Source: an uncultured Pelagibacteraceae bacterium (GTDB taxonomy: Bacteria > Pseudomonadota > Alphaproteobacteria > Pelagibacterales > Pelagibacteraceae). From it: DNA of 64,000 nucleotides. Below, one piece after another: positions 33,422-42,879 of the stretch; position 1 is the stretch's first letter; each line of letters starts with the position of its first letter. A program made the translations under genes and the position numbers. Location of the stretch: contig CACGJX010000002.1 of assembly GCA_902573465.1 (NCBI GenBank), forward strand, positions 1 to 64,000, given 5' to 3'. The notes below the pieces were generated by a model. It ran no database searches and was not told the origin of the DNA. It saw only the letters and a program-made list of their open reading frames with translations.

Positions 33422-34002
33422 TTATAATTATCTAAATATTTTTTAATTTTTTCAATAGGAAGTCCCATTATTGTATTTTCATTTCCATTAATATTTGAGA
33501 ATAAATCTCTTCCCTCACCTTCTATTTGATAAACATTATAAGCATATAACGCCTCATCCGAAATTTTCACCAAATAATTTTTTAGTTCTTCTTCTGTCAT
33601 TTTTTTCATTGTAAGTGACGCTTTATCAGTATGGTTCCATACCATAGATCCATTTTTAGAGATACATACTGAGCTTATTAAATGATGTTTTTTACCATTA
33701 AGTTTTTTTAAAATTTCTAAAGCTTCATTTCTATCGTTGGGTTTTGATATTAACTCTCCTTCTAAATCAATTACACTATCAGCACCCAAAACTAAATCGT
33801 TGACATATTTATTGCTTACTTTGTTAGCTTTTAATTCAGCCAAATTTTTTGATATGATTTCTGGTGAAGCTTTTTCTTTTAATAAACTTAATTTCACAAT
33901 ATCTTCATCGACATTTGATGGTTTTACTTCATTTAAAATATCATTTTCGTCCAGTATTTTTTTTCTAACCTTGCTTTTGGAAGCTAGAATAATTTTAGGC
34001 AT
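33418..34002 (-). CDS. maf: Maf-family nucleotide pyrophosphatase
   Basis: 194 residues. The Maf signature IILASKSKVRKKILDEN opens the chain, followed by LVLGADSVIDLEGELISKP and YQIEGEGRDLFSNINGNENTIMGLP near the end. Family enzymes hydrolyse non-canonical or modified NTPs. Overlaps the ppsR stop by 8 bases. Confidence 0.94.
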   Translation of the reverse strand: MPKIILASKSKVRKKILDENDILNEVKPSNVDEDIVKLSLLKEKASPEIISKNLAELKANKVSNKYVNDLVLGADSVIDLEGELISKPNDRNEALEILKKLNGKKHHLISSVCISKNGSMVWNHTDKASLTMKKMTEEELKNYLVKISDEALYAYNVYQIEGEGRDLFSNINGNENTIMGLPIEKIKKYLDNYK

Positions 34003-34819
34003 TTTCTTTGTATATCTCGTATATTTTAATTACTGAAGCTGCAGTTTCTTCTACAGATTTTCTTGTGACATCGATGAGTGGCCATTTATATTTTTTGAAA
34101 GTATTTCTTGCCATATCTACTTCTTTCTTGATTTGCTCTAGATCTGTATAAAGTTTATTTTTGTTTTCCTTAAGAGAATTCATTCTATTTTTTCTAATCT
34201 CTACAAGCCTTTCTGGCTCAGTATTTAATCCAATAATGCACGAGATTTTAGGGTTTTCTTTTAAAATTTCTGGTAAAGAATTTTCATTTATTAAAGGTAT
34301 ATTGGATGTTTTAAAGCCTTTGTTTGCTAAGAAGATTGCCGTTGGTGTTTTGCTTGTTCTGCTCACCCCCAACAGAATTATATCAGACTCTTTTATTTCT
34401 TTTACAAGATTGCCGTCATCATGGTTCATTGTAAATTGGATTGCTTCGATTCTTTTGTAATATTCTTCATCAAGGGCATACTGACCACTTGGTTGGTGTG
34501 AGGCTTTTTGATTTAAAAGCTTTGAAAAACTTAATATTAAATCACCTAATACTCCAAAGCATGGAATCTTTTTTGTATCACTATTTTTTGCAAGATATTT
34601 AGCTAAATTGCTATCAACAATGGAGTATAAAATTATTGAGTTTTTTTCTTTCTCTGCGTTTTCTAAAATTTTTATAATCTGATTTTCTGTTCTGGTAAAA
34701 GAATAAGTATGTATCTTATAATTTATATTTTTAAATTGGGCCTTGATAGCTATAAAAATACGATCAAGAGTTTCACCGGTTGCATCTGATATAAGATAAA
34801 TTTGATATAAATTATTCAT
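33995..34819 (-). CDS. ppsR: PEP synthase/PPDK regulatory kinase-phosphorylase (DUF299)
   Basis: 274 residues. DUF299 signature: IYLISDATGETLDRI at the N-terminus and the P-loop-like GVSRTSKTPTAIFLANKG. The family reversibly phosphorylates pyruvate-phosphate dikinase or PEP synthase using ADP and Pi. Its substrate enzyme is not in the window. First gene leftward from oriC, as in many alphaproteobacteria. Confidence 0.94.
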   Translation of the reverse strand: MNNLYQIYLISDATGETLDRIFIAIKAQFKNINYKIHTYSFTRTENQIIKILENAEKEKNSIILYSIVDSNLAKYLAKNSDTKKIPCFGVLGDLILSFSKLLNQKASHQPSGQYALDEEYYKRIEAIQFTMNHDDGNLVKEIKESDIILLGVSRTSKTPTAIFLANKGFKTSNIPLINENSLPEILKENPKISCIIGLNTEPERLVEIRKNRMNSLKENKNKLYTDLEQIKKEVDMARNTFKKYKWPLIDVTRKSVEETAASVIKIYEIYKENA

Positions 34820-35101
34820 GTATAATGTGTGTATAAATTTGTACTATTTTTATCATATTAAACATTTTGCATATTTTAAAATTTATGGTGTAAAACAATG
34901 CTTTTATTAACAAAATTAAACATGTTAAAATCTCTAGTAACCATTTGGTGTATTTAGTTAATAAGCTTCAATTTTACGTATATATTTATTAAAATTTAAA
35001 TTCTAAATGTTAACAAACTGTTTATAAAATGTTCAATAAATTTAATCACCATTGTTCACAGAATATACTAACATTACAATTAATTATATTTAATTATTAA
35101 T
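34820..35101. other. Probable chromosome replication origin (oriC)
   Basis: A 282-base, extremely AT-rich spacer between divergent ppsR and hemE, the longest gene-free stretch here. It has a perfect DnaA box on the minus strand (TGTGTATAA, 34828-34836 = TTATACACA) and two one-mismatch boxes: TGTTTATAA (35019-35027, minus) and TTGTTCACA (35052-35060, plus). Three TTAA tetramers at exact 9-base spacing start at 34907, 34916 and 34925. The ppsR/hemE junction is the known oriC position in Caulobacter and Rickettsia. Transcription of both flanks runs away from it, and parAB with parS lie about 7 kb to the right. Promoters for both flanking genes must also lie here. Confidence 0.75.
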
Positions 35102-36103
35102 ATGTCCCCAATCGAAGAAGTAATAATAAACAAGAAAAGTGATGTTAACCCTATTTGGATAATGAGACAGGCTGGTAGATATTTACCGGAATTTAGAGAA
35201 ATAAGAAAAAAAAATCCTGATTTTATTAAATTATGTCTTAATGAAAAATTATCAAGTGAGATTACTTTACAACCCTTAAAAAGGTTCAACTTAGATGCTG
35301 CAATAATTTTTTCTGATATTTTAATGTTACCATATGGTTTAAATCAAATTGTTGAATTTAAAAAAAATGTAGGCCCACTACTTGGTAACTTAGACTTAAA
35401 AGAAATTTCGAGTATTAAAGAAGTAGAATTTGTAGAAAAACTCTCTCCTATTTATGAATTAATTAAATTAGTTAGTAGTTCTGAATTTACTAAAAATAAA
35501 ACTACTATAGGCTTTGTTGGCGCGCCGTGGACTTTATTAGTTTATATGATAAATAAAAAATCACCAAAATTAAGTTTGAATGAAAATTTTTTTGAAGACA
35601 AATATTTAATTGATAAAGTTCTTAAAATTTTAGATAAATTTTTAAAAATACACATTAAAAACCAAATTGATAATGGTGCACAGATAATTCAAATTTTTGA
35701 TAGTTGGGCTGGTCTGTTAAAAGAAAAAGATTTATCTCATTACATTTATGACCCCACTTTAAGCTTAGTTAATTATATTAAATCTTTAAATGTGCCTGTT
35801 ATTTGCTTTCCAAAAGGTATTAAGAGTTACAAAGATTATTGCGAAATTATCAAACCAGACACAATTTGCATTGATTATGAAGTTGATCCGGTAAAAATTA
35901 ATAAAGAAATAAAAATTCCAGTTCAAGGAGGAATGGACCCAAAGGTTTTGCTTTCTAATAAAGAAAACTTAAAAAAAGAAACAATAAAATATTTAGATAT
36001 ATTTAAAGATCATCCATATATATTTAATTTAGGACATGGCGTTCTCCCAGATACAGACCCTAATATGATGGATTATTTGGTAAAAATTGTAAAGGATTAT
36101 TAA
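35102..36103 (+). CDS. hemE: Uroporphyrinogen decarboxylase
   Basis: 333 residues. The N-terminal PIWIMRQAGRYLPEFRE is the family signature, with FSDILMLPYGL and the closing NLGHGVLPDTDP. Converts uroporphyrinogen III to coproporphyrinogen III. First gene rightward from oriC; its stop overlaps hemH by one base. Confidence 0.97.
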   Translation: MSPIEEVIINKKSDVNPIWIMRQAGRYLPEFREIRKKNPDFIKLCLNEKLSSEITLQPLKRFNLDAAIIFSDILMLPYGLNQIVEFKKNVGPLLGNLDLKEISSIKEVEFVEKLSPIYELIKLVSSSEFTKNKTTIGFVGAPWTLLVYMINKKSPKLSLNENFFEDKYLIDKVLKILDKFLKIHIKNQIDNGAQIIQIFDSWAGLLKEKDLSHYIYDPTLSLVNYIKSLNVPVICFPKGIKSYKDYCEIIKPDTICIDYEVDPVKINKEIKIPVQGGMDPKVLLSNKENLKKETIKYLDIFKDHPYIFNLGHGVLPDTDPNMMDYLVKIVKDY

Positions 36104-40360: not shown

Positions 40361-42232
40361 ATGAAAAAAGATTTGCAATTTGATGTAGTTGTCATTGGCG
40401 GTGGTCATGCTGGGTGTGAAGCTGCAGCAGCCTCAGCAAGACTTGGTGTAAATACCGCTTTGTTTACACATAACAAAAATACAATAGGAGAAATGTCATG
40501 CAATCCAGCTATAGGTGGTTTAGGCAAAGGTCACCTAGTTAGAGAAATTGATGCTTTAGATGGCGTTATGGGAGAGGTAGCAGATAAGTCTGGAATACAA
40601 TTTAGATTATTAAATAGAAGTAGAGGACCTGCAGTTAGAGGACCCCGAACTCAGTCTGACAGATCATTATATCGTAAATATATGCAAGAAAAACTTGTAA
40701 ACTACTGTAATTTAAGCATTTTTTCAGACCCTGTAATAAAGTTTATTTTTGAAAATAATCAAATAAGTGGGTTTATAACACATAAAGGTAACAAAGTGAG
40801 TTGTAACAAGTTAATCTTAACAACAGGCACTTTTTTGAATGGTTTGATACATATAGGTGATGAAAGAACTCCCGCTGGACGATTTAATGAAAAACCGAGT
40901 ACAGGTTTAAGTGAACAATTAGAAAAGTATAATTTCAAAATTGGAAGATTAAAAACAGGCACACCTCCTAGATTAGATTCTAGAACAATTAATTTTGAAA
41001 ATCTGGAAAAACAGTTTGCCGATGAAGATCCATATTTTTTTTCTTTTCTTACCAAAAAAAATTTAAACAAGCAGGTTTCTTGTTCGATGACTTATACTAA
41101 CGAGAGAGTTCATAAAATAATAGAAAAAAATTTATCTAAAAGTGCAATGTATTCCGGAAGCATACAAGGTGTTGGTCCTAGATATTGTCCCTCTATTGAG
41201 GACAAAATAGTAAAATTTTCTGACAAGACAAGACATCAAATATTTCTTGAGCCCGAGGGTCTGAATGATCATACTATTTACCCTAATGGCATATCTACAT
41301 CTCTACCTGAGGTTGTGCAATATGAAATACTCAACAATATCAATGGTTTAGAGAATGTAAAAGTAATTAGACCAGGATATGCTATTGAATATGATTATAT
41401 TGATCCGAGAGAGCTCTTTTTAACATTGGAGACAAAAAAAATAAAAAATCTTTATCTCGCTGGTCAAATAAATGGAACTACAGGTTATGAAGAAGCAGCT
41501 GCTCAAGGCCTTATAGCGGGAATTAATGCTGCTTTATCTTTAAAGAACATGGAACCTTTTATTTTAGATAGATCAGACGCATACATTGGCGTTATGATAG
41601 ATGACTTAGTCACTAAAGGCGTTGCTGAGCCTTATAGAATGTTCACATCTCGAGCAGAATATAGACTAAGTCTTAGGTCAGATAATGCAGACTTAAGGCT
41701 TACTCATAAAGGAATTAAAATTGGTTTAATAGCAAAAAATAGAAAACAACTATTTGAAGACAAATTTAATAAATTAAGCAAAATATCTCTTCAAATGTCT
41801 AATTTAAACATTTCACCTTCCAAAGCAGATAAATTTGGAATAAAAATAGCGAAAGACGGTGTTTTTAGATCCGCAGAGGAAATTCTTACCCAAAAAAGTG
41901 TTGATATGACAAAAATAAGGAATATTTGGCCTGAAATTGCTGATTATGGAAACGAAATTGATGAGCAGATTGAGATTAACTCTCATTACAGAGGATATTT
42001 AAAGAAACAAAAGGCCGATATTTTAGCTTTTAAACGAGATGAGAATTTAACAATACCAGATAATATTGATTATGATCAATTTTCAGGCCTTTCTAATGAA
42101 GTAAAAGCTAAATTTAAGCAAATAAAGCCTAAAACCATGGGTCAGGCCTTAAGAATCGATGGAATCACTCCTGCAGCCGTATATATTTTGTTGTCACACG
42201 TCAAAAGAAAGTCTATTAAGCATATAGCTTAA
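40361..42232 (+). CDS. mnmG: tRNA U34 carboxymethylaminomethyl enzyme MnmG
   Basis: 623 residues, FAD enzyme and partner of MnmE. FAD loop [20 protein letters not shown] at the N-terminus, [34 protein letters not shown] and the C-terminal [19 protein letters not shown]. Its stop overlaps the rsmG ATG by one base. A 115-base spacer separates it from mnmE and may hold its own promoter. Confidence 0.97.
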
Positions 42233-42879
42233 TGGATAACTTAATTTTAAATTTTTATTCCAAAATCTCTAATTTGAATGTTTCACGTGAAACTTGTAAT
42301 GAGCTCGAGAGCTTAATTACGATGATACAGGAAAAAAATCAGAAAATTAACATTATAAGTAAAAAAATGTATGAAAAACAGGCTATAAGAGAGCGTCATA
42401 TTATAGATTCAGCGCAAATTGTTGATTTTGTTGATTTAAATTGCAATACAACCTCTGATTTAGGTACAGGGGGTGGAATGCCTGGATTAATAGTGGCTAT
42501 AGTGATGAAAAAAATTAAAAATAACATGAAAGTTAACCTTTATGAAAAAAGCTACCACAAATGTGTTTTCCTGCGAGAAGTTTCAAAAAAATTAAATTTA
42601 AATACAGAAATAATTCAGAAAGATATTTTTTCACTTAAAAATATTGAAACAGGAACAATAATGTCCAGGGCATTTAAGCCAATGCCTGTGATCTTAAACT
42701 TGGTTAATGAAAATTTTAAAAAATATAAAAATATTATTTTTTTTATGGGAAGTAGTGGAAGAAAAATTTTTAATGAAACACTTCAAGAGTGGGATTTAGA
42801 TTATGAAGAAAAAAAAAGCTTAACAAGTAACGACTCATTTATATTAAACATCAAAAAAATTAAAAAAAAGATTTCATGA
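42232..42879 (+). CDS. rsmG: 16S rRNA G527 N7-methyltransferase
   Basis: 215 residues. SAM-binding LGTGGGMPGLIVAIV, RERHIIDSAQI and a C-terminal Rossmann fold. The N-terminal segment NVSRETCNE is encoded by a perfect parS palindrome (42280-42293), so this stretch of the protein is constrained by two functions. Overlaps parA by 4 bases. Confidence 0.95.
   Translation: MDNLILNFYSKISNLNVSRETCNELESLITMIQEKNQKINIISKKMYEKQAIRERHIIDSAQIVDFVDLNCNTTSDLGTGGGMPGLIVAIVMKKIKNNMKVNLYEKSYHKCVFLREVSKKLNLNTEIIQKDIFSLKNIETGTIMSRAFKPMPVILNLVNENFKKYKNIIFFMGSSGRKIFNETLQEWDLDYEEKKSLTSNDSFILNIKKIKKKIS
42279..42294. promoter_or_regulatory. parS: parS centromere site (ParB/CTP clamp loading)
   Basis: TGTTTCACGTGAAACT contains a perfect 14-base palindrome, GTTTCACGTGAAAC (42280-42293), identical to the core of the widely conserved parS sequence. 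It lies within rsmG, about 600 bases before parA. It nucleates ParB, which partners ParA to segregate the origin region. It is the only copy I found in the window. Confidence 0.92.

Follow-up and report, generated by a model that had tools for sequence, protein, structure and literature searches.

The spacer between ppsR and hemE is, very probably, where chromosome replication begins in this SAR11 bacterium, i.e., its oriC, predicted to lie in the ancestral alphaproteobacterial place. This reading was reached because location, conservation, clustered DnaA boxes and a GC-skew trough agree, and they equally support the first-pass annotation, which had proposed a probable origin here. The direct observations are the place of the spacer, its conservation, the clustering of its boxes, the swapping between A and C at position 6 of the box, and a trough in the GC skew, with the skew maximum almost on the other side of the chromosome. 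The window, i.e., the whole 64,000-nucleotide stretch that was analysed, comprises bases 1-64000 of contig C2 and belongs to the Pelagibacter group (SAR11); the assembly consists of 29 contigs with a total of 1.08 Mb and is 88.6% complete. SAR11 is among the ocean's most abundant bacterial groups, and growth-rate estimates based on ori-to-ter coverage require the position of its origin, which a motif-supported origin recognisable in fragmented SAR11 assemblies would supply.

The ppsR-hemE spacer and its conservation

The spacer and the features around it are as follows.

33995-34819, minus strand: ppsR (Kinase-PPPase; PF03618, E 1.3e-87), which we take to be the COG1806/DUF299 flank gene
34820-35101, no strand: proposed oriC, the ppsR-hemE spacer; 82% AT, conserved length, densest box cluster of contig C2
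34978-35008, no strand: weakest duplex within the spacer at the 30-bp scale, with a weaker one in 0.05% of contig C2 windows
35102-36103, plus strand: hemE (PF01208, E 1.4e-82)
42279-42294, plus strand: parS-like site TGTTTCACGTGAAACT, one mismatch to the parS consensus; chance expectation 0.41 at up to 3 mismatches

The spacer is 282 bp long and, as expected of an oriC between hemE and COG1806, its AT content (82.3%) exceeds that of the genome; at the 280-bp scale a weaker duplex occurs in just 0.27% of contig C2 windows. The strong AT richness and the diverging transcription (ppsR read from the minus and hemE from the plus strand) are as first annotated, and the accompanying claim of the longest gene-free stretch holds for gaps without a plausible gene, since three larger gaps between ORFs of at least 120 aa each contain a plausible smaller ORF (88+67, 114, and 86 aa). 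ParABS had been placed about 7 kb off; parA begins 7.8 kb from the spacer and is followed by parB. The parS-like TGTTTCACGTGAAACT sits within an ORF (42232-42879) upstream of parA/parB.

Conservation was assessed over 126 entries, made up of 80 loci, 45 same-genus genome loci (some genomes being present twice) and the window, which together gave 114 distinct sequences. The results showed that the divergent ppsR/hemE pair is present in 126/126 entries with a gap of 261-284 bp. At the 57 loci where both spacers were readable, mean identity to the window was 78% for the ppsR-hemE spacer versus 61% for the mnmE-mnmG spacer, the former being more conserved in 46 of them, and the standard deviation of length was 1 bp versus 32 bp. 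A scan of 34000-36000 against Rfam returned a single match, under the gathering score and outside the spacer; thus, no known RNA family accounts for the conservation of the spacer. A ppsR match was missing in 17/101 genomes of the genus, all less than 90% complete, and also in 3 same-genus genomes that are 94-96% complete. Among the 17 genomes fetched from other genera, the divergent ppsR/hemE spacer was found in 15 (258-283 bp), and in 2 hemE did not lie beside the ppsR spacer. In G101 and G107 (loci L226/L227), hemE is replaced beside the spacer by a 422-aa ORF, the start of which resembles by eye the rho of the window; the boxes and triplets described below stay in place.

DnaA boxes and their spelling in the clade

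Five boxes of the form TTRTNMACA were found in the window spacer. These are listed here together with a sixth, degenerate site and with the share of the 114 distinct spacers that carry a box at the aligned position.

34828-34836, minus strand: DnaA box TTATACACA; 64/114 (TTATTAACA 33, TTATACACA 21)
34904-34912, plus strand: DnaA box TTATTAACA, in the clade spelling and including the first TTAA; 101/114 (TTATTAACA 80, TTATCAACA 10, TTATTCACA 8)
35008-35016, minus strand: DnaA box TTGTTAACA; 73/114
35019-35027, minus strand: DnaA box TTATAAACA, 11 bp from the 35008 box; 46/114
35030-35038, minus strand: degenerate third phased box, intact in 33/114 and not in the window
35052-35060, plus strand: DnaA box TTGTTCACA, adjoining the proposed unwinding array; 67/114, mostly TTATTCACA (62)

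The first-pass annotation had recognised three of these and had called the set sparse and minimal. The box at 34828 indeed matches TTATNCACA fully and the two one-mismatch boxes at 35019 and 35052 were borne out, but the boxes at 34904 and 35008 had been overlooked, and under the clade's own spelling there are five boxes, not three. Only 1 box is present in the window spacer under strict TTATNCACA; the shifted spelling therefore leaves a consensus search with just one box to see. Five TTRTNMACA boxes in 282 bp agree with the several boxes expected of an alphaproteobacterial oriC, for which at least four have been taken as indicative (PMC1914354).

The commonest DnaA box of the clade is TTATNAACA, with A instead of C at position 6, and the E. 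coli consensus misses it. Across the 114 distinct spacers, the number of boxes per spacer was 0.86 for TTATNCACA (0.05 in shuffled sequence), 2.46 for TTATNAACA (0.16 shuffled) and 3.63 for TTRTNMACA (0.27 shuffled; range 1-6). When 9-mers with a free fifth base were ranked by the number of spacers holding at least 2 copies, TTATNAACA ranked first, with at least 2 sites in 101/114 spacers (14.4x expected), and the same was true of 13/15 other-genus spacers (18.4x expected). At least one of the 114 spacers is without any TTATNMACA box, and no box was found in L233, a spacer from another genus. Pairs of TGTNNATA 11 bp apart were found in 35/114 spacers, with 0 at 9, 10, 12, 13, 14 and 15 bp, and in 1/15 spacers of other genera, so that helical phasing is confined to the genus of the window.

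Whether the TTATNAACA sites are merely chance matches in AT-rich DNA, the real boxes being only TTATNCACA, has to be weighed against these counts. Such a reading draws on the genome-wide numbers, since TTRTNMACA is not enriched there (275 sites versus 329 for the reversed control); lone TTATNCACA boxes are likewise unremarkable, with 50 across the 1.08-Mb assembly. The motif not being enriched genome-wide, the evidence lies in the cluster and not in the single box. Box density reached 15.1/kb in the 250-bp bin beside ppsR versus a median of 0.07 over the surrounding 20 kb (56 of the 80 loci, those longer than 20.5 kb), and the spacer was the largest cluster in contig C2 (5 boxes; the scan of the window's own assembly covered this contig) and also in those parts of G082 (4), G103 (4) and G012 (3) that were scanned, the next-best clusters in the scanned stretches having 2-3 boxes. 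Chance is also contradicted by the 14-18x excess of TTATNAACA within spacers and by the exchange of A and C at identical aligned sites, as at 34828 (33 TTATTAACA, 21 TTATACACA) and at 34904 (80 TTATTAACA versus 8 TTATTCACA), and in G013 and G018, where a 25-mer is identical save for position 6. We therefore regard chance as improbable, and the shifted box TTATNAACA as, in all likelihood, a genuine predicted DnaA box of the clade.

The dnaA gene lies at about 96.7-98.1 kb of contig C2, and domain IV of its product aligns to E. coli DnaA (1J1V, E 4.6e-23). The helix that reads RDHTTVLHA in E. coli reads RDHTTIIHS here; with the roles of residues R432-H439 taken from PMC5043019, comparison of this helix with that of E. 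coli revealed nothing there that obviously explains the shifted box.

A candidate unwinding module and the control of initiation

Two further features follow the 35052 box and lead up to hemE.

35061-35064, plus strand: 4-nt gap after the 35052 box, variable in sequence
35065-35082, plus strand: proposed array of DnaA-trios, reading ATA CTA ACA TTA CAA TTA on the top strand; in the window, triplets 3 and 5 interrupt the run

The box, the N4 gap and the NTA triplets form a candidate trio unwinding module, a reading that we somewhat favour. The A residues at 35067, 35070, 35073, 35076 and 35079 are kept in 107-114 of the 114 spacers, giving the consensus NTA NTA N.A NTA C.A, the complement of which is 3'-NAT-5'; in other bacteria the DnaA-trio 3'-GAT-5' is reported to come after a box and 4-5 bp (PMC8287927; PMC8235120). 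In Pelagibacter spacers triplet 1 is mostly ATA (94/114) and triplet 2 CTA (76/114). In the other genera, CTA comes first after AACA-N4 in 12/15 spacers, a count reached in 0/2000 Markov simulations (mean 0.22); the best-scoring AACA in the last 70 bp was taken in this test, and the control used an equal choice. The same 12/15 spacers have the order seen in the basal unwinding system (BUS), i.e., box, short spacer and trio, with 3'-GAT-5' commonest nearest the box. The published BUS rule asks for at least three unbroken trios (NAN) within 16 bp of the box (PMC8287927), and the window array lacks such a run. At least 4 triplets running within the 36 nt after the box were found in 58.8% of the 114 spacers versus 32.4% after shuffling. 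The period-3 conservation of the array is the strongest of the spacer, yet it was reached by 537/5000 column permutations. The 4-nt gap is not GC-rich, with a mean of 39% GC over the 114 spacers. A NAN run on the plus strand after the box was also considered and was rejected, as it has the wrong polarity for 3'-GAT-5' trios reading away from the box.

In whole genomes, box-N4-NTANTANNANTA occurred at 49 places in 47/101 genomes, of which 43 adjoin ppsR and 6 lie elsewhere, and the reversed control occurred at 23 places in the same 101 genomes; the pattern was derived from the alignment, so that its presence at the spacer is partly built in while its rarity elsewhere is not. The exact box-N4-triplet pattern was absent in 41/84 genomes having ppsR, and a looser box-N4-YTA matched at background level over 11 genomes and was uninformative. 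The spacers of G101 and G107, which are without hemE, still carry TTATAAACA-N4-CTAATA.

From these sequence features a course of initiation can be proposed, in which DnaA would bind the box cluster, most of it spelled TTATNAACA or TTATNCACA, and the 35008 and 35019 boxes, arranged in tandem at a distance of one helical turn, would help to build a DnaA filament. This filament would run from the 35052 box across the 4-nt gap onto the NTA triplets just before hemE, where, as modelled for B. subtilis and H. pylori, it would capture the complementary 3'-NAT-5' strand and melt the AT-rich DNA, and the helicase would then load.

The three TTAA tetramers noted at 9-base spacing are indeed present, at 34907, 34916 and 34925. 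A CtrA reading of this trio was rejected, since the spacing is TTAA-N5-TTAA and not TTAA-N7-TTAA, the first TTAA lies inside a DnaA box and the third is missing from the consensus of the relatives; sites with N7 averaged 0.33 per spacer over the 114 spacers. CtrA sites are not universal, as one Wolbachia strain is given without any while Caulobacter has them (PMC1914354), and Pelagibacter is described in PMC2877005 as having no ctrA ortholog. GANTC was found in 3/114 spacers where about 10 were predicted from base composition, and is thus almost missing although CcrM is reported to be present in SAR11 (PMC3973325). GcrA was found in 11/11 genomes and a short Hda-like ORF (220-249 aa) in 10/11, in every case under the curated cut-off, with none in the incomplete G000; given the presence of GcrA and an Hda-like protein, control beyond DnaA supply is possible. 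We offer only tentatively, as rather unlikely, the wider proposal that SAR11 re-spelled the DnaA box to TTATNAACA family-wide and has a stripped-down origin without CtrA and nearly without GANTC sites; if true, initiation would hinge mainly on DnaA supply and on weak boxes that fill cooperatively and lead into a short array of trios. A SAR11 origin makes origin control without CtrA testable.

In the sister family (f2), there was no ppsR match in the 17 genomes listed, and hemE was recovered in 9/10 genomes searched. In all 9 f2 loci (L246-L254), one or more boxes lie in the 450 bp preceding hemE, with three in L246 and L248, and in 8/9 a minus-strand box lies 266-282 bp before hemE, the outer box of the window being at 274; these f2 distances rest on extrapolated gene starts. 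None of the nine f2 spacers had a clear box-N4-CTA. The f2 origin may stay beside hemE despite the missing ppsR match.

GC skew, rival sites and known origins

Cumulative GC skew was determined in three single-contig relatives, G082, G012 and G103, with 536/1438, 540/1344 and 400/1200 one-kb bins read, respectively, and the remainder interpolated. A skew minimum at the spacer had been proposed as a check on the origin. The part of this that stood is that the spacer lies within the skew trough of all three complete genomes, with values at the spacer and at the minimum of -9869/-10042 (G082), -1617/-1784 (G012) and -1059/-1306 (G103); in each, however, the skew is deepest 29-32 kb from the spacer in the direction of hemE. 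The maxima, at 158, 605 and 674 kb, are 33, 15 and 8 kb off the points opposite the spacer (191, 590 and 666 kb). Within the window itself, the cumulative curve reaches its lowest point near 58-60 kb. In 8/8 same-genus genomes checked, dnaA is situated beyond hemE, at 61-64 kb from the spacer, and the skew minimum falls roughly midway between spacer and dnaA in G082, G012 and G103. With gene orientation regressed out, breakpoints fell at +40, -60 and +34 kb (pooled best +40), position 0 being worse by 3.8-4.6 log units per genome and 7.3 pooled; these transcription-corrected breakpoints are inconsistent and were not used for placing the origin. Skew thus supports the region and not the base pair, its resolution being tens of kb. 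The use of dif as a mark of the terminus was dropped, as PMC2731167 reports no dif/Xer in P. ubique.

The offset of the skew minimum raises the possibility that the origin lies elsewhere in the trough, by dnaA or near +30 kb, and that the spacer is a relic, which would fit the deepest skew at +29 to +32 kb as well as the regression breakpoints at +34 to +40 kb in 2/3 genomes and +40 kb pooled. At the dnaA loci (2.4-3.5 kb), however, 11/11 genomes have at most 2 boxes, more than 1 kb apart, the next-best clusters in the scanned stretches are just the 2-3 boxes mentioned above, and a relic would hardly retain the length (sd 1 bp versus 32 bp for mnmE-mnmG over 57 loci) and identity seen here, so that we hold this to be highly improbable. 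It is also very unlikely that the spacer is merely the shared regulatory region of ppsR and hemE, with DnaA boxes that regulate transcription and triplets that are the hemE promoter. Divergent genes do require promoters, and TATACT at 35064-35069, a possible -10 element, overlaps the triplets; but the boxes and box-N4-CTA persist where another gene replaces hemE (though that gene also needs a promoter), the skew trough and terminus fit an origin, and the identical gene pair flanks the experimentally identified Caulobacter origin (PMC1914354). The mnmE-mnmG spacer, which the first-pass annotation had named as the alternative, is gene-free, 79% AT and has one TTATCAACA in the window, yet any box is present in just 2/57 relatives (mean 0.035 boxes), its length varies from 39 to 118 bp and its identity to the window is 0.61 versus 0.78 for the ppsR-hemE spacer; as an origin it can be practically dismissed.

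The origin of HTCC1062 was identified manually (PMC4033161) and GC skew was used to place the origin of a Pelagibacter assembly (PMC9516812); our literature search returned no title or abstract on the sequence anatomy of a SAR11 origin among the matches listed. The candidate module resembles the B. subtilis basal unwinding system and the H. pylori DUE in its box, gap of about 4 nt and NTA triplets with a 3'-NAT-5' complement, and differs in that the window trios are interrupted, the 4-nt gap is not GC-rich and there is no co-oriented box pair directly before the trios. As for the box, epsilonproteobacteria are described as tolerating C-to-A changes at position 6, which are relatively rare (PMC5043019), and predicted TTATTAACA boxes, likewise with A at position 6, are reported in Mycoplasma hominis and kin, an unrelated lineage with two boxes upstream of dnaA (PMC2751442); the A-type box is therefore unusual and not unprecedented. 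Compared with the Caulobacter crescentus Cori and the Rickettsia prowazekii ori, there is no sign of CtrA control here (TTAA spaced by N5 and not N7), the commonest box is TTATNAACA, GANTC is present in just 3/114 spacers, and the spacer, at 282 bp, is shorter than the 383-395 bp given for three Rickettsia entries. The flanking genes, the AT-rich spacer and the DnaA boxes are shared with both, and the ppsR-oriC-hemE order is, as had been stated at first, the alphaproteobacterial one, in which the spacer lies between hemE and the COG1806 gene (PMC1914354). The place of the origin is the known alphaproteobacterial one; newly added are the way in which the clade spells its boxes, a map of these boxes, and the candidate trio module together with its conservation in other genera.
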